64,000 bases of DNA from Gammaproteobacteria bacterium. Lineage in GTDB: Bacteria > Pseudomonadota > Gammaproteobacteria > Steroidobacterales > Steroidobacteraceae. The notes beneath the pieces were generated by a model, which had not been told where the DNA came from, made no database searches, and saw nothing but the letters and a program-made list of their open reading frames with translations. Within the stretch, counting starts at the first letter, position 1. Every line of letters starts with the position of its first letter. The stretch lies in assembly GCA_028293745.1 (NCBI GenBank), contig JAQGOF010000229.1:1-64000 (forward strand). Reading direction: 5' to 3'. The translations under genes were made by a program, and so were the position numbers. Of this stretch, positions 9,910-18,073 are shown piece after piece.

Positions 9910-11097
9910 CTAACCTCCCTTCAGCTTCGCCCCCACCCGCCGGTAAGCCTCCCGAAAGGGAATCCCCTCCTGCACCACCAGCCGGTTCGCCTCCTCGGCC
10001 GCATGGATAGCCGGGTCCAACTTGATCCGCTCGGGCAGGAACCTCATCGCATCAATCGCAGGCGGCAGGATATCCAACGTCTGCAGCGCGAGATCGATGC
10101 TGCGAAACAAAGGGAACTTCAACAATTGCAGATCGCGTTGATATCCCGACGGCAGCTTGGCGAAGATCCCCAGCGCCTCCGTGAGACACCCCAACGCAGT
10201 CGCCGAACGCCCCCGAATCAACTCGAACACGTCCGGGTTGCGCTTCTGCGGCATGATGGAGGAGCCGGTCGTGAATGCATCCGGCAACTCGAGGAACCCG
10301 AACTCCTGGGTGTAGAACAGCAGCACGTCGGCCGCAAATCGTCCGAGATCCTGCACCAACAGCGCGATCTCGAACAGCAGTTGCGCCTCGGCCTTGCCGC
10401 GCGAGAGCTGCACGCCCGTCACCGGTTCCTGCGTAACATCGAACCCGAGCCTTGCGCTCGTCGCGCCACGATCCAGCGGCAAACCCGGTGTGCCGTATCC
10501 GGCGGCCGATCCGAGCGGGTTCTTGCCAACCCGGCGCTGCACCTGCCGCAACCCTTCCGCATCATCACGAATCTCAGCCGCGAATCCGCCAGCCCACAGA
10601 GCGACAGAGCTCGGCATCGCCTGCTGCATGTGGGTATATCCGGGCAGCACGGTATTGACCTCGCGTGCAGCGAGCCGATCCAGCGCGTCAACAACGTGCG
10701 CAGCGCCGGTCCCCAACTCTTCAATGACATCACGCAGGTACAGCCGGATGGCAGTCAACACCTGATCGTTTCGCGAACGCCCCAGATGTACCCGGCCGCC
10801 TGCCGCCCCAATTCGCTCGGTCAGACGCTTCTCCAGCGCCGTCTGCCCATCCTCATCCTCGAGCGAAATGTGCCACTCACCGCGCGCATGCTCTTCGCCA
10901 AGCGCGGTCAGGCCAAACCGGATCACCTGCAGATCGTCGGCGGACAGCAGCTTCTGCGCATGCAGCATTTCAACATGCGCGATCGATGCAGCCACGTCAT
11001 AACGTACGAGCCGCTCGTCGAGGGCATAGTCCTCCCCCGCCGTGTATCGCAACACGCGGCTATCGAGTGGAGCGCCCTTGTCCCACAAGCGGCTCAT
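9910..11097 (-). CDS. argH: Argininosuccinate lyase
   Basis: 395 residues, shorter than the common ~460-residue enzyme because the C-terminal domain is compact. Signature GSSIMPQKRNPDVFELIRG (fumarase/aspartase superfamily loop with the catalytic Ser) and the substrate-binding LHLGRSRNDQ and GYTHMQQAMP blocks are intact; the end EEANRLVVQEGIPFREAYRRVG matches the family. Splits argininosuccinate into arginine and fumarate, the last step of the pathway encoded by this operon. Lies 8 bases after argB. Confidence 0.95.
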   Translation of the reverse strand: MSRLWDKGAPLDSRVLRYTAGEDYALDERLVRYDVAASIAHVEMLHAQKLLSADDLQVIRFGLTALGEEHARGEWHISLEDEDGQTALEKRLTERIGAAGGRVHLGRSRNDQVLTAIRLYLRDVIEELGTGAAHVVDALDRLAAREVNTVLPGYTHMQQAMPSSVALWAGGFAAEIRDDAEGLRQVQRRVGKNPLGSAAGYGTPGLPLDRGATSARLGFDVTQEPVTGVQLSRGKAEAQLLFEIALLVQDLGRFAADVLLFYTQEFGFLELPDAFTTGSSIMPQKRNPDVFELIRGRSATALGCLTEALGIFAKLPSGYQRDLQLLKFPLFRSIDLALQTLDILPPAIDAMRFLPERIKLDPAIHAAEEANRLVVQEGIPFREAYRRVGAKLKGG

Positions 11098-11105
11098 GGC
11101 GGCGC

Positions 11106-12050
11106 TCAGGTACCGCCAAGCGCCGTCTGCTGCTCAGCCGGAGTCAGCGCGTTTACGTCGGCAACGATCAATGTCCCGGTGCCTTCGTTGGTAAACACCT
11201 CGCCGAGGATTCCTTCCGGCGACTTGTACGACACCACGTGAACGCGGCGGACCCCGCCGTGAATGGCATTCTCGATAGCCTTCGCCTTGGGCAACATGCC
11301 CTCGACGATCCGGCCTTCCTCGCGCAACCGTTTCAGTCCACGCAAGTCCGTGTACGAAATCAGAGAGGTAGCATCTTCCACCCGCTCCAGGATTCCCGGG
11401 GCGCCGGTGCAGAGAATCAACTTCTCGGCTCCGAGCGCCGCCCCGATCGCGGCGGCAACGGTGTCCGCGTTGATATTGAGAAGAACACCTGTCTCGTCAG
11501 CCGACAGCGGGCTGACCACGGGCATCAGTCCACTGTCCAGCAACTTGCGAATGACGGTCGTGTCGATGCCGTCAATGTCGCCAACGAAGCCGTAGTCGAC
11601 CAACTCGCCGCTCGTCCCAACCTTCACAGGCGGGCGCCGATGCGCTCGCACCAGCCCCGCATCGACCCCGCTGATTCCGACTGCATCGATGTTGAGATCC
11701 CGGCACATCCCGAGAATGCGCGTATTGATCAGGCCGTTGAGCACCATCGCCGCCACATCGATCGCCTTCTGGTCGGTCACCCGCCGGCCTTCGACCATGC
11801 GCGTGGGAATCCCCAGCGCCTCGGAAATCTCGGTAGTCTGTGGGCCGCCCCCATGCACCATCACGACGCGCACGCCGAAGTAATGCAGGATCGCGATCTG
11901 CTCGATCAGAACCCGCGTGGCGTCGGCGTCGCCGAACACACCACCACCGGCCTTCACGATGAAGGTCTTGCCCTTGTACATGCGGATATAGGGAGCGGCG
12001 CTCTTCAGCGCCCGGATGGCGAGAGTCTGTTCGCCTCGATGCATGATCAT
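11106..12050 (-). CDS. argB: Acetylglutamate kinase
   Basis: 314 residues, amino-acid-kinase fold. KGKTFIVKAGG (phosphate-binding Lys; usual consensus KYGG), VMVHGGGPQ, GISGVDAGLVRA, and NINADTVAAAIGAALGAEKLI are the expected ATP/N-acetylglutamate blocks. It phosphorylates N-acetylglutamate. The C-terminus stops after the kinase fold with no GNAT acetyltransferase domain, unlike the bifunctional NAGS-NAGK of Xanthomonas, so this protein does not supply the first step. Start could be the ATG at 12050 or 12044. Confidence 0.95.
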   Translation of the reverse strand: MIMHRGEQTLAIRALKSAAPYIRMYKGKTFIVKAGGGVFGDADATRVLIEQIAILHYFGVRVVMVHGGGPQTTEISEALGIPTRMVEGRRVTDQKAIDVAAMVLNGLINTRILGMCRDLNIDAVGISGVDAGLVRAHRRPPVKVGTSGELVDYGFVGDIDGIDTTVIRKLLDSGLMPVVSPLSADETGVLLNINADTVAAAIGAALGAEKLILCTGAPGILERVEDATSLISYTDLRGLKRLREEGRIVEGMLPKAKAIENAIHGGVRRVHVVSYKSPEGILGEVFTNEGTGTLIVADVNALTPAEQQTALGGT

Positions 12051-12059
12051 GTGATTTTC

Positions 12060-13061
12060 TTACACTCCTTTGAGCATTTGATAGAGCACGGCCATCTGAA
12101 CGACCAGCCGGTTGTAAGCTTCGCGCTGCACGATGCTGCGCGGGCTGTCGAGCACTTCGTCGGCGACCGCGGTGTTGCGTCGTACCGGTAAACAATGCAT
12201 GAGGCGGCAATCCGGGGCCGTCCGGGTAAACCAGTCGTTCCTGACACACCAGCCCGTCAGCTCGCCGCGCAGCTTGGCGTCACCCTGTGCGTCGCCATAG
12301 ACACTCGTCGAGCCCCATTCTTTCGCGTAGATAATGTTCGCGCCCGCCAGCGCATCGCCACGATCCGCCGTCTCGCGTACTGACCCACCTGAGCGCGCCG
12401 CAGCCGAGCGAGCCTTGCTCATGATGTCGGGAGGCAAAGCGAAGCCCTCCGGCCTCAGCACGACCACGTCCATCCCGCGCATCGCAGCCATATGGACTGC
12501 CGCCGCAGGCACCGCAAGCGGCAGCGCGCGCGGATGATACGCCCAAGACAGCACAAAGCGGCCATTTCGCGGCACGCCGAGATCGTCCATGGTCTTCCAG
12601 TCAGCGAGCGCCTGGCAGGGATGATTGATTGCCGACTCGAGGTTGATGAGCGGCTTGTCGACCAGCTCGGCCATGGCCTTGAAGTTCGTCTCCGCGAGGT
12701 CGTTGGCCAGATCCTTGCACTCGGCAAACGCCCGGATGCCGAGCGCGTCGCAATAAGACGCCAGCACCGGGATTCCCTCACGCACATGCTCGGCAGCGGC
12801 ACCGTTCATCACAGCCCCCAGCCGGGTCTCCAACTGCCACGTTCCCTGTCCCGGGGTGATCACGAACGAGTTGCCCCCGAGTCGCGCCATGCCCGACTGG
12901 AATGAGGCCAGCGTACGCAAGGACGGATTGAAGAACACGAGCCCCAGGATCTTTCCCGCGAGCGCGCGCGGCTCCGGACTCGTCTCGAGTCGCCGCGCAA
13001 GCTCCAACAGAGCGCTGACCTCGTCGCGCTCGAAATCGGCAAGATCCAGGAACCGCCTCAT
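12060..13061 (-). CDS. argF': N-acetylornithine carbamoyltransferase
   Basis: 333 residues. Carbamoyl-phosphate loop FFNPSLRTLASFQ (ordinary OTCases have STRT), NHPCQALADW and HCLPVRRNTAVADEVLDSP place it with the transcarbamylases that act on N-acetylornithine rather than ornithine, described in Xanthomonas. The Glu of GAAAEHVRE (about residue 91) aligns, from memory, with the Xanthomonas Glu92 that selects the acetylated substrate over succinylated. Product is N-acetylcitrulline, which then needs a deacetylase not present in the window. The ATG at 13061 overlaps the argD stop (ATGA), so translation is probably coupled. Confidence 0.9.
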   Translation of the reverse strand: MRRFLDLADFERDEVSALLELARRLETSPEPRALAGKILGLVFFNPSLRTLASFQSGMARLGGNSFVITPGQGTWQLETRLGAVMNGAAAEHVREGIPVLASYCDALGIRAFAECKDLANDLAETNFKAMAELVDKPLINLESAINHPCQALADWKTMDDLGVPRNGRFVLSWAYHPRALPLAVPAAAVHMAAMRGMDVVVLRPEGFALPPDIMSKARSAAARSGGSVRETADRGDALAGANIIYAKEWGSTSVYGDAQGDAKLRGELTGWCVRNDWFTRTAPDCRLMHCLPVRRNTAVADEVLDSPRSIVQREAYNRLVVQMAVLYQMLKGV

Positions 13062-14233
13062 GCAGGCAGGTCCGCGAGCGTATCCCGCAGCATGTCGATC
13101 TGCTCCTCCTGCAGGATGAACGGCGGCAACAACCGCAGAATGTGAGGGTCCGTGGCCGTGCCCGCCAGGATCCCACATTCCAACAGCTCGGCCTGGATCT
13201 CCTTCGCCGGCCGCGTCGTTCGCAATCCGGTGAGAAAGCCCGCGCCCTGGTGTCCGGTGACAGGCCCCACGATGCAGGTTTGTCGAATGTAGCTGCCCAC
13301 CCGGCGCACCCGCTCGAGAAGATTCTCGGACTCGATGGCATCGATGACGGCCTCCATGACTGCGCAGGCCATCGGGCCGCCCCCGAAGGTCGTGCCCAGC
13401 AGATCCAGCTTGAGAGCTGCCGAGACCTTCTGCGTGGCAAGCAGTGCGGCACACGGGAAACCGTTGCCGAGCGCCTTCGCGGTGGTGATCATGTCAGGCG
13501 TAACGCCGTACATGTTTGCCGCGAAAGGATGGCCGACACGGCCCATTCCACATTGCACTTCGTCGAAAACCAACACGGCGCCCACTTCATCGCAGCGCCG
13601 GCGCAGCGCCTCGAGATACTCCTTGCCCAGATCGACGGCCCCTGCGAGTCCCTGCACCGGCTCGACAATGACGGCTGCAGTCTTGTCCGTCACAAAACCC
13701 GCGATCGAATCAACACTGCCGCGCGGCATGAAACTGACATCGAAGGGCGTGCGCGGGAAGCCATACCACTTCGCCTGCGCGCCCCAGGTCACGGCGCCCG
13801 CCGCGGCGGTGCGGCCATGAAAGCTGCCCTCCACGGCAGCGACTTGCGCGCGAGAAGTCATCCGGAATGCGAGCTTGAGCGCATTCTCGTTGGCTTCTGC
13901 GCCGCTATTCACGAAGAAGACGCTTGTCATGGGCAACTTGGAGAAACGCACCAGCCTTTCCGCCGCGCGCGTGCGTACCTGCATCGCGACGGCATTCGAC
14001 TGGAAGTTGCACGACTGCGCCTGGTTCGTCAGCGCACGCGTGAATCCGGGATGCCCGTAGCCAAGTGCCGCTACTGCATGTCCCCCGTAGAGGTCGAGGA
14101 CGCGCTCGCCGCGGCTGTTCGTGAGCCAGACCCCTTGGGCTGACACCACTTCAATGGGGTACTGCGCAAACACGGGCGCAAGGAAATCGTGGCTGGCCGC
14201 GGCCGGCCGAGTTGCTGGGATCGGTGGGTTCAT
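13058..14233 (-). CDS. argD: Acetylornithine aminotransferase
   Basis: 391 residues, class-III PLP aminotransferase. YGGHAVAALGYGHP, NSGAEANENALKLA, FDEVQCGMGRVG (PLP-binding Asp) and TTAKALGNGFPCAALLA (Schiff-base Lys) are all present. Converts N-acetylglutamate semialdehyde to N-acetylornithine using glutamate. Ten bases downstream of argC and overlapping argF' by 4 bases, which matches its place in the pathway. Confidence 0.95.
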   Translation of the reverse strand: MNPPIPATRPAAASHDFLAPVFAQYPIEVVSAQGVWLTNSRGERVLDLYGGHAVAALGYGHPGFTRALTNQAQSCNFQSNAVAMQVRTRAAERLVRFSKLPMTSVFFVNSGAEANENALKLAFRMTSRAQVAAVEGSFHGRTAAAGAVTWGAQAKWYGFPRTPFDVSFMPRGSVDSIAGFVTDKTAAVIVEPVQGLAGAVDLGKEYLEALRRRCDEVGAVLVFDEVQCGMGRVGHPFAANMYGVTPDMITTAKALGNGFPCAALLATQKVSAALKLDLLGTTFGGGPMACAVMEAVIDAIESENLLERVRRVGSYIRQTCIVGPVTGHQGAGFLTGLRTTRPAKEIQAELLECGILAGTATDPHILRLLPPFILQEEQIDMLRDTLADLPA

Positions 14234-14243
14234 GATTCTCGCT

Positions 14244-15305
14244 TCAGGTCCATCCGGGGGCAGGAGCCGTGAGACCTGAGGTCTCAGCCAGGCCGAATAT
14301 GCGGTTCATCCACTGCACGGCGCCGCCCGCCGCACCTTTGTTGAGATTGTCCACAACGCACATGACAGCGACGGTCCGACCGTTCGCCACCGCGGACAGA
14401 TGTGCGTAGTTGCTGGTGGCAACTTCCTTCACACGCGGAGCCTGTTCGCCCACACGTATGAACGGACAATCTGCATAGAATTCGCGCAGCGCCGCTAAAA
14501 CCTTCGGCGTATCCACTGATGCCTTGAGAGGCGCTTGCACGGTGACATGAATGCCGCGTGCAAACGGGCCGGAGTGCGGCACGAAAGCAAAGTCAGCTTC
14601 AACACCGGAAGCTGCGCGCGCGCAGGCCGCGATCTCAGGCGCGTGACGGTGCGTCAGCGCGTTGTAAGAGTACAGATCGCTATGCCGGAGTGGGTGATGA
14701 GTGCCCTCGATCGGCTTGCGTCCGGCACCCGTACTGCCGGTGATACCGGCCACGAACAATGTCGTTGAAGTCAGGCCTAGGGCCAGAAGCGGGACGCTCG
14801 CAAGCAACGTGGCCGTCGCAAAGCAGCCGGGGTGAGCTACATGCGTCGTTTCCAGCTTCTTCAGGTGCTCGGGCACGGCGCACGTGAACTCGGCGATTCG
14901 CTTTGGTGCCCCATGCGCGTGCTTGTATACGGCCTCATAGGCTTCGGCCGAGGAGTACCGAAAGTCAGCGGAGATATCCACGACTCGCGGCCGCGTGCCG
15001 GCCCGGGCCGCAACGCTGAGCAATGAGTCGATGAGCGCCGCCGAGACTCCGTGCGGGGCTGCCGAGAAGACGGCTGACTGCGGTGTTTCCACCAACAGCC
15101 TTTCGACATCTGCTTGCGACTTGAAGCGCACGTCGCTGTACACACTCGCCAGATGAGGGAACGCTTTCGACACGCTCTCGCCCGGCTGGCTGTCAGACAT
15201 GACTGCGGCCAGGTCGAACTGCGGATGCCCGGCAATCAGGCGCAACAATTCCCCGGCGACATAGCCGGTTCCACCCAGAACGACGGTGGGTATCTTCGCG
15301 CTCAC
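14244..15305 (-). CDS. argC: N-acetyl-gamma-glutamyl-phosphate reductase
   Basis: 353 residues. Rossmann motif VLGGTGYVAGELLRLIAGHP at the start, the catalytic Cys in AHPGCFATA, and GITGSTGAGRKP plus PHSGPFARGIHV in the dimerisation/active-site region. Reduces the acyl phosphate made by ArgB. The start is a GTG at 15305 that overlaps the stop of the preceding P-loop gene (GTGA), which links the two translationally. Confidence 0.95.
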   Translation of the reverse strand: MSAKIPTVVLGGTGYVAGELLRLIAGHPQFDLAAVMSDSQPGESVSKAFPHLASVYSDVRFKSQADVERLLVETPQSAVFSAAPHGVSAALIDSLLSVAARAGTRPRVVDISADFRYSSAEAYEAVYKHAHGAPKRIAEFTCAVPEHLKKLETTHVAHPGCFATATLLASVPLLALGLTSTTLFVAGITGSTGAGRKPIEGTHHPLRHSDLYSYNALTHRHAPEIAACARAASGVEADFAFVPHSGPFARGIHVTVQAPLKASVDTPKVLAALREFYADCPFIRVGEQAPRVKEVATSNYAHLSAVANGRTVAVMCVVDNLNKGAAGGAVQWMNRIFGLAETSGLTAPAPGWT

Positions 15306-16372
15306 TGGGGTGCCTTCACGCCGATAGCCTCGATCACGCGGTCGCCGAGTGATGCACCGTTGGTCAGCGCATTGAAGGCGGGGACGCCGAGCTGGCTGTT
15401 GATGATCTCGACGCCCACCTGGTTGTCCGTCGAAGGTCCGGTAACCACACAAGGCTCGATTCCAAACCGCTCACGCAATAACTTCACACCACCCCAGGCG
15501 GCTACGGGATCGTTTGCAGACAGAATGACGCCGGTCAGCGCCGCCCGGATATCCGGGCATTCGAGGATGGCGTCGACGCCGTAGGTGCCCAGAATGCCGT
15601 CACCGAGCTCGAAGACGATCGCGTCGGGTTTGCCAGCGGCGAGCGCTGTCAACATAGTACGTGTCAGCGCCGGCCCGTTGACCCTCGTTGTGGTCACAAC
15701 ACCCAGATCGGTGAAGATCATCGAATTGCGGGCGCCAGCATCTTCCATCGCGAGGATATCGCGGCGGAGCGAGACACCCGTGGCTTTGAAGGCATCAATC
15801 ACCAGCCCGCGATGCCGCATGCGGCTGATCACCGCGCATGCGGCAGCTGTCTTGCCCGCTTCCATACAGGTGCCGGCAAGCGCCACCACCGGCACTGCGC
15901 GAGCTTCCAGTTTCGCCTCGAAGTCGAGCCGCTTGTGACCAACGCGGGCGGGCACGCCGATGCGCTCGCCAAGGTAGGGGAAATGCAGCACTCCACCGAT
16001 GACACGGCAGTCGAATGGCTTGCCCTTATCAGGGTTCACCGAGTCGCATATGCCCAGCACACCCCCGATGTTGAGCATCTGGATGATGTCGCCGGGCTGG
16101 ACAGACTGCGGAATGTGGCCGGAGTATCCAAACAGCGCCTTGCGGTGGCCGAGCGCGCCGACGACGATATCACCCTTGCCGACCTTGGCCATGCGGCCGC
16201 TCGTCAGCTCGAGCGTGTTGTAAGTGGACTTGTTGGTCAGAACTTCGACCGCGACGACGACGCCTTCCTCGGCAGGAATGTCGTTGGACACGCGCACTTC
16301 GTGCGAAAGCCCGCAGGCCTGCGTTACCGAGGCAACCTTGTCGACAACAATACTGCGCATCCCGTTAACCAT
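15302..16372 (-). CDS. P-loop protein of the arginine operon (DUF1611/DgcN-like?)
   Basis: 356 residues, not a canonical arginine enzyme. The N-terminal ~150 residues form a beta-rich domain (VVAVEVLTNKSTYNTLEL, KGDIVVGALGHRKALFGYSG). The C-terminal part begins with ALAGTCMEAGKTAAACAV (about 170-187), a Walker-A-like GxxxxGKT loop, then KATGVS, TDLGVV and FELGDGILG, resembling P-loop proteins of the DUF1611 type. DUF1611 includes DgcN, reported as a D-glutamate N-acetyltransferase. It starts 2 bases after argG and overlaps argC, so it belongs to the operon. As no argA, argJ or GNAT gene accompanies the operon, making N-acetylglutamate is a plausible role; this is inference. Family assignment itself is tentative. 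Confidence 0.6.
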   Translation of the reverse strand: MVNGMRSIVVDKVASVTQACGLSHEVRVSNDIPAEEGVVVAVEVLTNKSTYNTLELTSGRMAKVGKGDIVVGALGHRKALFGYSGHIPQSVQPGDIIQMLNIGGVLGICDSVNPDKGKPFDCRVIGGVLHFPYLGERIGVPARVGHKRLDFEAKLEARAVPVVALAGTCMEAGKTAAACAVISRMRHRGLVIDAFKATGVSLRRDILAMEDAGARNSMIFTDLGVVTTTRVNGPALTRTMLTALAAGKPDAIVFELGDGILGTYGVDAILECPDIRAALTGVILSANDPVAAWGGVKLLRERFGIEPCVVTGPSTDNQVGVEIINSQLGVPAFNALTNGASLGDRVIEAIGVKAPQ

Positions 16373-16374
16373 GT

Positions 16375-17610
16375 TCAAGCGTCCTTGGCCCGCTCGCCCG
16401 CACGCCGCGCGAACACGCCTGTCAGCGAAACTATCTTGGAAAAGCCCAGAGCATCCGTCGCAGTCCATTCACCGACCGCTTCACCGTAGACGCCCTTGGA
16501 AGCCGCCATCAACGAGTAGGGCGACTCGACGCCTTCGATGAACAGGCTTCCCGGTCTGAACAGCACGTGTACATCGCCGGTCACGCGCTCCTGCGAGGAC
16601 TGCAACAGCGCTTCGATGTCGCGGCAGACCGGGTCGAGAAGCTGGCCTTCGTGCACCAGGTCTCCATAAGGCTGTGCGACCAACTCCTTGATGCGCTGTT
16701 GGCGCCCTGTCAGCACGAGCTTCTCGAGCTCGCGATGAGCCGTGAGCAACGTCTCCGCTGCCGGCGCCTCGAAAGCGACCCGGCCCTTGGTACCAATGAT
16801 GGTATCCCCCAGGTGAATGCCGCGCCCGACGCCAAACGGCGCGGCCACAGACTCGAGAGACTCGATGACCTGCACCGGTGACATCGCCTTGCCGTCAAGC
16901 GCCACAGGCCGGCCTCGCTCGAACGAAATGACGTGCCGCTCCGGCGCACGCGGATTCGTGAACGCATCGCGAGTGAGCACCCAGGCGCTGTCAGGAATGC
17001 TGCCGGCGGACGTGAGAGTCTCCTTGCCGCCGATCGTCACACCCCACAGACCGCGATTGATCGAGTACGCAGCACCGGAGGGCGGGACGGGCAGGTTGCG
17101 CTTCTGCAGATAATCGAGCTCATCCTGCCGTTTGAACGCTTTGTCACGAACCGGTGCGAGCACTTCGAGATCCGGCGCCAGCGTTCGAAGGGCGACTTCA
17201 AACCGCACCTGATCGTTGCCTGCAGCAGTGCAGCCATGCGCAATCATGTTAGTGCCAAGCTGTCGCGCCATGCGCGCGATGGTCTGTGCCTGCATGACAC
17301 GTTCCGCGCCCACGCACAGCGGGTACAGCTGGCCGCGCTTCACATTTCCCATGATCAGGAAACGCAGCACTTGTTCAAAGTAGTCCGCGCGCGCATCAAT
17401 CTGATGATGTTCAATCGCGCCCAGAGCACGCGCTCTTTCCGCCAGCGTGCGTGCGGCAGCTGCATCGATGCCGCCGGTGTCGACAGTGACGGTGATAACC
17501 GGGCGGCCGGTGTTCTCCGCGACCCACGGCACCAGGAAAGAGGTATCGAGCCCACCGGAGTAGGCGAGGACAATGGGCTTGGAGCCCGCGTCAGCGGCAG
17601 TGTGAGGCAT
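16375..17610 (-). CDS. argG: Argininosuccinate synthase
   Basis: 411 residues. The ATP-pyrophosphatase loop AYSGGLDTSFLVPW is at about residues 15-28; VTVDTGGIDA, HGCTAAGNDQVRFE and YSINRGLWGVTIGG cover citrulline and aspartate binding. Joins citrulline and aspartate using ATP. ATG at 17610 lies 7 bases after the argR stop; an upstream in-frame extension would overlap argR and is not conserved. First enzyme gene of the operon although it acts late in the pathway. Confidence 0.95.
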   Translation of the reverse strand: MPHTAADAGSKPIVLAYSGGLDTSFLVPWVAENTGRPVITVTVDTGGIDAAAARTLAERARALGAIEHHQIDARADYFEQVLRFLIMGNVKRGQLYPLCVGAERVMQAQTIARMARQLGTNMIAHGCTAAGNDQVRFEVALRTLAPDLEVLAPVRDKAFKRQDELDYLQKRNLPVPPSGAAYSINRGLWGVTIGGKETLTSAGSIPDSAWVLTRDAFTNPRAPERHVISFERGRPVALDGKAMSPVQVIESLESVAAPFGVGRGIHLGDTIIGTKGRVAFEAPAAETLLTAHRELEKLVLTGRQQRIKELVAQPYGDLVHEGQLLDPVCRDIEALLQSSQERVTGDVHVLFRPGSLFIEGVESPYSLMAASKGVYGEAVGEWTATDALGFSKIVSLTGVFARRAGERAKDA

Positions 17611-17617
17611 GATTTGT

Positions 17618-18073
17618 TTAGACGACTCGGAAGATCGATTGCAGGCGGCCGAGGAGCTCGTCCTGCGCACGAGAATTGGCGGTGGCGATGAATATGGTGT
17701 CGTCACCCGAAATCGTGCCCGCCACCTCCGGCCACTCGGCCTTGTCGATGGCAACGGCGACGCTCTGAGCGGCACCTACAGTGGTCTTCAACACAGTGAG
17801 CGAGGGACCAGCTCGCTTCAAGCCGCGCACGAATTGCGCGAGCATCCCGAAATCCCCATTGGCGCGCGTCACCTCTTCGGGAGGTAAAACATAGCGCCCG
17901 CTTGCTTTCAACACGCCGAGGTCCCGAAGGTCACGGCTCACGGATGACTGCGTGACCTCGTGGCCCTCTTTCTTCAACAGGCGCACGAGATCCTCCTGCT
18001 TGCGGACAAAGTCCTCCCGCAGGATGCGCACAATGGCGCTACGGCGTTCGTGTTGTTGAGTATCGTTCAGCAC
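17618..18073 (-). CDS. argR: Arginine repressor
   Basis: 151 residues. N-terminal winged helix with TQSSVSRDLRDLGVLKASGRYVLP (recognition helix at about 40-52) and C-terminal hexamerisation/arginine-binding domain ending GTISGDDTIFIATANSRAQDELLGRLQ, where the GDDTI Asp residues bind arginine. The start is a GTG at 18073. As first gene of the arginine operon it probably represses its own transcription together with the whole pathway, with operators in the AT-rich upstream stretch. Confidence 0.95.
   Translation of the reverse strand: MLNDTQQHERRSAIVRILREDFVRKQEDLVRLLKKEGHEVTQSSVSRDLRDLGVLKASGRYVLPPEEVTRANGDFGMLAQFVRGLKRAGPSLTVLKTTVGAAQSVAVAIDKAEWPEVAGTISGDDTIFIATANSRAQDELLGRLQSIFRVV

Follow-up and report, generated by a model that had tools for sequence, protein, structure and literature searches.

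Which protein carries out the acylation of L-glutamate, the first and committing step of arginine synthesis, in an organism whose arginine operon encodes the later enzymes and none of the familiar ones for this step? The question is raised by an eight-gene operon in the window (the whole 64,000-nucleotide stretch analysed, from a gammaproteobacterium of the family Steroidobacteraceae with a 6.9 Mb genome, 91% complete), in which an additional gene, here called X, lies between argG and argC. The first-step enzymes covered by the available text of PMC4490483 are the classical NAGS, NAGS/K, ArgJ, ArgO, the short, ArgH-fused and Corynebacterium types, and LysW with ArgX; that of PMC9026213 adds ArgA2 from Bacteroidetes and ArgA3 from Veillonella and Dialister (a homologue of N-acetylcysteine deacetylase), and none of them is described as a P-loop protein in those portions of the two articles. 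Searches of an open-access library for earlier accounts of a P-loop enzyme in this role, or of a NAGS from Steroidobacter, turned up none, and the accessible part of PMC5764234 contains nothing on the first step of arginine synthesis.

The operon has the order argR-argG-X-argC-argD-argF'-argB-argH, as given in the original prediction, and comprises the following features:

17618..18073, minus strand: argR, first in the operon, 151 aa (name from the original prediction and the operon position)
16375..17610, minus strand: argG, argininosuccinate synthase (over the NCBIfam cut-off)
15302..16372, minus strand: X, P-loop protein, proposed N-acyl(succinyl)glutamate synthase, 356 aa
15848..15874, minus strand: Walker-type loop GTCMEAGKT of X, residues 167-175
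14244..15305, minus strand: argC, N-acyl-gamma-glutamyl-phosphate reductase (TIGR01850, 284 bits, cut-off 234)
13058..14233, minus strand: argD, class-III aminotransferase, presumed acylornithine aminotransferase (Pfam cut-off passed; NCBIfam argD models below their cut-offs)
12060..13061, minus strand: argF', N-acylornithine transcarbamylase, with A90, P181 and A298 at the specificity positions
12792..12794, minus strand: codon of ArgF' A90 (the Glu92 position of the acetyl enzyme)
11106..12050, minus strand: argB, N-acylglutamate kinase without NAT domain, 314 aa (over the NCBIfam cut-off)
9910..11097, minus strand: argH, argininosuccinate lyase, 395 aa, no acetyltransferase match (over the NCBIfam cut-off)

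ArgG, ArgC, ArgF', ArgB and ArgH pass curated models, ArgF' being over the cut-off of NF003384, 'N-acetylornithine carbamoyltransferase' (348 bits vs 288), and the best acetylornithine aminotransferase model gives ArgD 320 bits against a cut-off of 457. X is an open reading frame of 356 codons on the minus strand, and the plus strand across the same positions contains stops. The genes are separated by 7 (argR-argG), 2 (argG-X), 10 (argC-argD), 9 (argF'-argB) and 8 bases (argB-argH), or overlap by 4 (X-argC and argD-argF'), so that X begins 2 bases after argG and runs into argC, as had been described, and the Walker-type loop reported in it is present. The kinase domain of ArgB occupies residues 28-274 of 314 with no acetyltransferase match, in agreement with the earlier statement that the protein ends after its kinase fold, and its match to the ArgA model is confined to the kinase part. 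No match to ArgJ or to a GNAT domain was found in the seven operon proteins scanned, in agreement with the original statement that the operon has no argA, argJ or GNAT domain.

In the pathway proposed here, X would acylate the alpha-amino group of L-glutamate, ArgB, ArgC and ArgD would carry the protected intermediate to N-acylornithine, and ArgF' would carbamoylate the latter. That X catalyses the first step is judged somewhat better than an even proposition, from its position before argC, its mutual exclusion with the NAT domain, and the lack of ArgJ and of any GNAT with a NAGS-type score; this estimate concerns the first-step role, within which the ATP-ligase and acetyl readings weighed below are nested as variants. 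On this reading X would be a non-GNAT P-loop N-acylglutamate synthase of Gammaproteobacteria, probably an N-succinylglutamate synthase.

X was compared with the known first-step enzymes across 60 related genomes (the window's own included), X being called at 59% identity or more. It was detected in 46 genomes (three of them, G013, G014 and G032, with X in pieces) and the NAT domain of NAGS/K in nine; no genome had both and five had neither (G030 has its ArgB 180 bases from the beginning of a contig, and G036, G045, G048 and G058 have no ArgB hit). In eight of the nine NAT genomes, the domain and the kinase match share a single frame of 438-466 aa, the ninth frame being cut to 162 aa. This bifunctional NAGS/K (ArgB-NAT fusion, PF04768, Xanthomonas type) would supply the first step in relatives without X, and its operon type differs from that of X in having NAT on ArgB, an acetyl-type ArgF' and an M20-like gene in the operon. 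Because the exclusion follows whole operons (ArgB and ArgC of the NAT genomes are about 27-31% identical to those of the window), it represents few evolutionary events and not 55 independent ones. Neither ArgJ nor an ArgA over its cut-off was found in any of the 60 genomes. By its genomic context, X fits the role of an N-acylglutamate synthase: its gene accompanies argB and argC and occurs in genomes that lack the NAT domain.

The window's own genome holds 26 GNATs detected with PF00583 (some of their frames are cut by the edge of the fetched stretch), none of which reaches an NCBIfam NAGS cut-off; the best NAGS-type scores are 35 bits of 280 (CG3035 family) and 29 bits of 180 (PRK07922), and proteins of the RimI, ArsN2 and MSMEG_0567 types pass their own cut-offs. 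X itself matches no GNAT/NAT or ArgJ model (ArgA, ArgB-NAT, ArgJ, short and CG3035 types). When this 91% complete genome was searched, with PF00583 for the GNATs, no recognisable NAGS of a conventional type and no ArgJ were found elsewhere in it, which bears out the original prediction on this point.

The association of X with the arginine genes was surveyed in 94 X loci, namely the best 80 of 307 relatives plus 14 further loci (10 from other families of the order, three from other families of the class and one from another class). The full eight-gene order is kept in 63 of them and a shorter run of the same order in 24, mostly on short contigs; the remaining seven show other arrangements (ArgR-X-ArgC-ArgB in two, ArgF-ArgB-ArgH-ArgG-X-ArgC in two and this last order with ArgD in front in one, the other two being without ArgD). 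These figures exclude a chance association. argC is present in 93 of the loci, and in every one of them the first query gene upstream of it, on the same strand, is X, at 150 bp or less in 92 (658 bp in L150). In L149-L152, where X is 43-48% identical to that of the window, argG-X-argC is kept within another overall order or on cut contigs; in L289 (G675, of another class) argR-X-argC-argB stand alone within 17 kb; and in L072 argG, argD and argF' are absent from their usual places, on a contig that ends within or just after argB. X therefore stays, in L289 and L072, with the kinase and the reductase that act just after the acylation. The expected conservation of X between argG and argC was thus observed, X being retained in the arginine operon of close and distant relatives. 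A 47-row tree places the 18 operon-type X proteins on one side of a branch with support 94/94, present in 96% of the bootstrap trees, although the bootstrapping had not converged and long branches drew a warning. Among 398 genomes drawn from the phylum, 25 matched the X profile to any degree at E 0.001, and an operon-type score was reached only in the window's own genome (599 bits) and in G675 (563 bits), well ahead of the third-best score of 145 bits; no distant relatives of X were found in viral contigs. The X of L289 is 70% identical to that of the window, which could reflect horizontal transfer or misbinning. An arginine operon like the window's is also present in L059 (contig CAMCBU010000002.1), with X 79% identical and one stop codon in the X match; the record is entitled as a Klebsiella pneumoniae MAG, a title that looks wrong.

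X reaches the cut-off of no Pfam or NCBIfam model: the best one, DUF1611 (PF07755), gives 15 bits (E 0.017, cut-off 25), the DgcN model NF041892 (cut-off 480 bits) has no match at E of 1 or less, and no ATP-grasp match was found; towards the N terminus there is a hint of an EF-G domain 2 (14.3 bits, E 0.046, cut-off 27). PF07755 has no match at E 0.001 in the whole own genome. An hhalign comparison of X with DUF1611/DgcN yields E 0.006 and a probability of 6 over 172 collinear columns, and a paralogue of X is over the DUF1611 cut-off, at 28 bits. The resemblance to DUF1611 originally proposed does not, on these profile scores, amount to membership, and X was rejected as a member of that family. 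The accompanying claim that DUF1611 includes DgcN stands, since, among six DUF1611 proteins of the class that are well over the cut-off, four match the NCBIfam DgcN model NF041892 (551, 473, 157 and 136 bits). Two DUF1611 proteins, L201 and L209, occur in a single genome of the window's family (G076), L201 being the one with 473 bits, just below the DgcN cut-off of 480.

The AlphaFold model of X has a mean pLDDT of 61.7, with residues 1-147 below 50 and the P-loop domain better; the first 147 residues are left unmodelled because of the alignment used, 57 rows in which the 56 sequences besides X share 76-94% identity with it. In a Foldseek search with this model, which is poor before residue 148, dethiobiotin synthetase chains rank 1-4 (E from 1.5e-5), followed in fifth place by 2obn, a DUF1611 structure (E 7.6e-5); the P-loop domain of the model thus matches dethiobiotin synthetase at least as well as 2obn. 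The Walker A loop and the top structural similarity place a BioD-like P-loop domain in X, an assignment of fold that is not evidence of BioD function. BioD differs from X in length (about 220 aa vs 356), the two are 15-16% identical over the match, and the operon of X consists of arginine genes. In 21 rows of X and its paralogues, G167, G173, K174, T175, K196, D205, D222, E255 and D288 are invariant. A sequence search of the PDB with X returned two leucine-rich-repeat proteins, one with E 9.2e-5, which were judged spurious (single stretches of 7-9 bits); with profile A1 it gave seven matches (E 0.23-0.99), of which six were to P-loop proteins.

DgcN, a D-glutamate N-acetyltransferase (DUF1611, PF07755, NF041892), nevertheless shares with X a P-loop domain, weakly and collinearly alignable, and glutamate as acyl acceptor (presumed for X). 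The differences are that X reaches neither the Pfam nor the NCBIfam model, that its gene is part of an arginine operon, and that its substrate would be L-glutamate. The homology argument from DgcN to the function of X is weak. The donor to X would most likely be an acyl-CoA, given that DgcN is annotated in this way (EC 2.3.1.312 in the available part of PMC11747546); a BioD-like, ATP-dependent route from the free acid would be a live alternative.

The nature of the acyl group can be approached through ArgF'. According to the accessible text of PMC4581275, N-acetylornithine transcarbamylase is marked by Glu92, Asn185 and Lys302, and the N-succinyl enzyme by A/S/P/V/Q, P and V/I/E at the same positions; S, P, A or V at the first of them is stated to cause succinyl preference in that of PMC7311316. 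An ArgF' match is present in 87 loci, of which three were too short and 84 were read. All 82 readable X-linked rows, among which at least three are second copies of one genome (L095/L113, L097/L107 and L098/L114), are succinyl-type at the equivalents of Glu92 and Asn185 (A and P in the window). Their triplets are A-P-A in 66 (the window's type), A-P-V in 12, A-P-unread in one, P-P-E in two and V-P-E in one; within the window's order the triplet is A-P-A or A-P-V, and four genomes of other families have P/V-P-E. At the Lys302 equivalent, the 81 rows have Ala (66, the window included), Val (12) or Glu (3), and the Ala of the window is neither Lys nor one of the V/I/E listed for the succinyl enzyme. 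E-N-K was read in the other two of the 84 rows, both from NAT-fusion genomes, and likewise in four more NAT genomes, that is, in all six examined of the 13 found. As judged from these positions, the residues of ArgF' are typical of N-succinyl- rather than N-acetylornithine transcarbamylase, and the acyl group of the pathway is more likely succinyl than acetyl.

The same pattern was seen in 369 genomes of the class: operon-type X is present in nine, all nine with a succinyl-type ArgF', and an acetyl-type ArgF' in four, all with NAT and without X. Two genomes (G212 and G389) have a succinyl-type ArgF' without detected X, both on 3-kb contigs, and the match in G124 (27%), with residues unlike either type, was set aside. 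Fisher's test on the counts 9/2/0/358 gives 1.7e-16, a value that is only descriptive, since entire operons differ and the genomes cannot be counted as independent. A second, divergent transcarbamylase, 31% identical to ArgF', accompanies the operon copy in one genome (L217, G042:C5). A close parallel to the proposed pathway is ArgA2/BT3761 of Bacteroidetes, proposed as N-succinylglutamate synthase from genetics and context, which has the same predicted step as X and co-occurs, like X, with N-succinylornithine transcarbamylase (available portions of PMC9026213 and PMC7311316); the two differ in that ArgA2 has been described as a GNAT, a family to which X, with its P-loop domain, shows no match.

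For the removal of the acyl group, an M20-like match lies between argG and argB in all five NAT-type loci (with acetyl-type ArgF') examined. No deacylase was seen in the X operons, and an M20-like match was found in one of the 94 X loci (L011), outside the operon, in a search made with five queries at E 1e-4 and in which many loci were short. The window's own genome encodes DapE (565 bits), and none of the 15 scanned of its 21 M20 frames passes an acetylornithine-deacetylase model. As the candidate desuccinylase of Bacteroides is a protein distantly related to DapE (accessible part of PMC7311316), DapE or another M20 enzyme may, as a guess by analogy, be the deacylase here.

Four other explanations were weighed against this reading. 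The one closest to the original prediction is that the pathway is acetyl after all and X an N-acetylglutamate synthase, which is doubtful but deserves to be taken seriously: ArgF' has its best match in N-acetylornithine carbamoyltransferase (NF003384), its overall score is nearer the acetyl enzyme (224 bits with PDB 3l02 vs 177 with the Bacteroides fragilis enzyme) and its Lys302 equivalent is outside the published succinyl list, although the other two positions are succinyl-type in every readable X-linked ArgF' and four more distant genomes, with Pro or Val, Pro and Glu, comply with that list throughout. The part of the original prediction that made X the missing N-acylglutamate-forming enzyme is thus supported by the operon, the exclusion with NAT and the lack of a recognisable NAGS, and the acetyl part is probably wrong, because the transcarbamylase residues point to succinyl. 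X could also be an ATP-dependent N-acylglutamate ligase, in which succinate or acetate would first be converted to an acyl phosphate, with the amino group of glutamate as the attacking nucleophile, a route that may be likened to the carbamate chemistry of dethiobiotin synthetase. The rank of dethiobiotin synthetases as best structural matches (E 1.5e-5) and the invariance in 21 rows of the Walker G, K and T, of the Lys before (T/S)G and of the acidic D222, E255 and D288 speak for it; the acetyltransferase annotation of the closest functionally named relatives (DgcN, NF041892), and the possibility that the P-loop binds the phosphates of CoA instead, speak against it, and this ligase seems unlikely. 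Its narrower form, a BioD-like P-loop enzyme outside the known NAGS families that would be an N-succinylglutamate synthase joining free succinate with ATP, and not succinyl-CoA, is quite improbable.

An accessory or regulatory role of X as an ATPase, with the first step performed by an unrecognised GNAT encoded elsewhere, as proposed for BT3761/ArgA2 in Bacteroidetes, is rather unlikely. NAGS enzymes are described as highly diverse in the available text of PMC4490483, nine of the 26 own GNATs have no NCBIfam match at E 1e-6, and small GNATs resembling the ArgA NAT domain exist in several X-bearing relatives (49 bits in G024, 41 bits in G013, with weaker ones in many relatives); however, no GNAT of the own genome matches the ArgA model at E 0.001, the genomes with a NAT domain yielded no X, and X remains beside argC and argB in loci from which argG, argD and argF' have gone. 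Very improbable is a role of X in removing the acyl group from N-acylcitrulline or in returning it to glutamate in the manner of ArgJ. The contrast between the X operons, where no deacylase was seen, and the five acetyl-type loci with an M20-like match would fit such a role, but X stays with argB-argC, not argF'-argG, in altered operons, and DapE offers an M20 candidate in the own genome. Moreover, neither ArgJ nor any deacylase of this kind is known to resemble a P-loop NTPase-type domain.

If X is the N-acylglutamate synthase proposed here, it would be a first-step arginine enzyme that is neither a GNAT nor ArgJ, and the succinyl arginine route, best known from Bacteroidetes, would operate in an order of Gammaproteobacteria, the genomes of which could otherwise be scored as arginine auxotrophs. 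A function would also be suggested for a larger uncharacterised superfamily of P-loop proteins, one branch of which lies beside M20 hydrolases. No arginine genes were found beside the other P-loop relatives in the class (25-32% identity), which were left out of consideration, except in L292, where an ArgD-like match is located about 1.7 kb from the relative. A third clade of X-like P-loop proteins comprises L103, L104, L106 and L130-L144; the neighbour is an ABC transporter (Pfam) in L104 and weakly resembles an alpha/beta hydrolase in L106. The sister clade of X (L099, L101, L102 and L105) consists of paralogues 26-31% identical to it, with the P-loop GTSMSAGKT. Their neighbouring gene codes for an M20 hydrolase in L099 and L102, followed in L099 by a flavin-reductase-like gene (Pfam), and the neighbouring frames of L101 and L105 are similar to those of L099 and L102; this clade is perhaps part of another N-acyl amino acid system.
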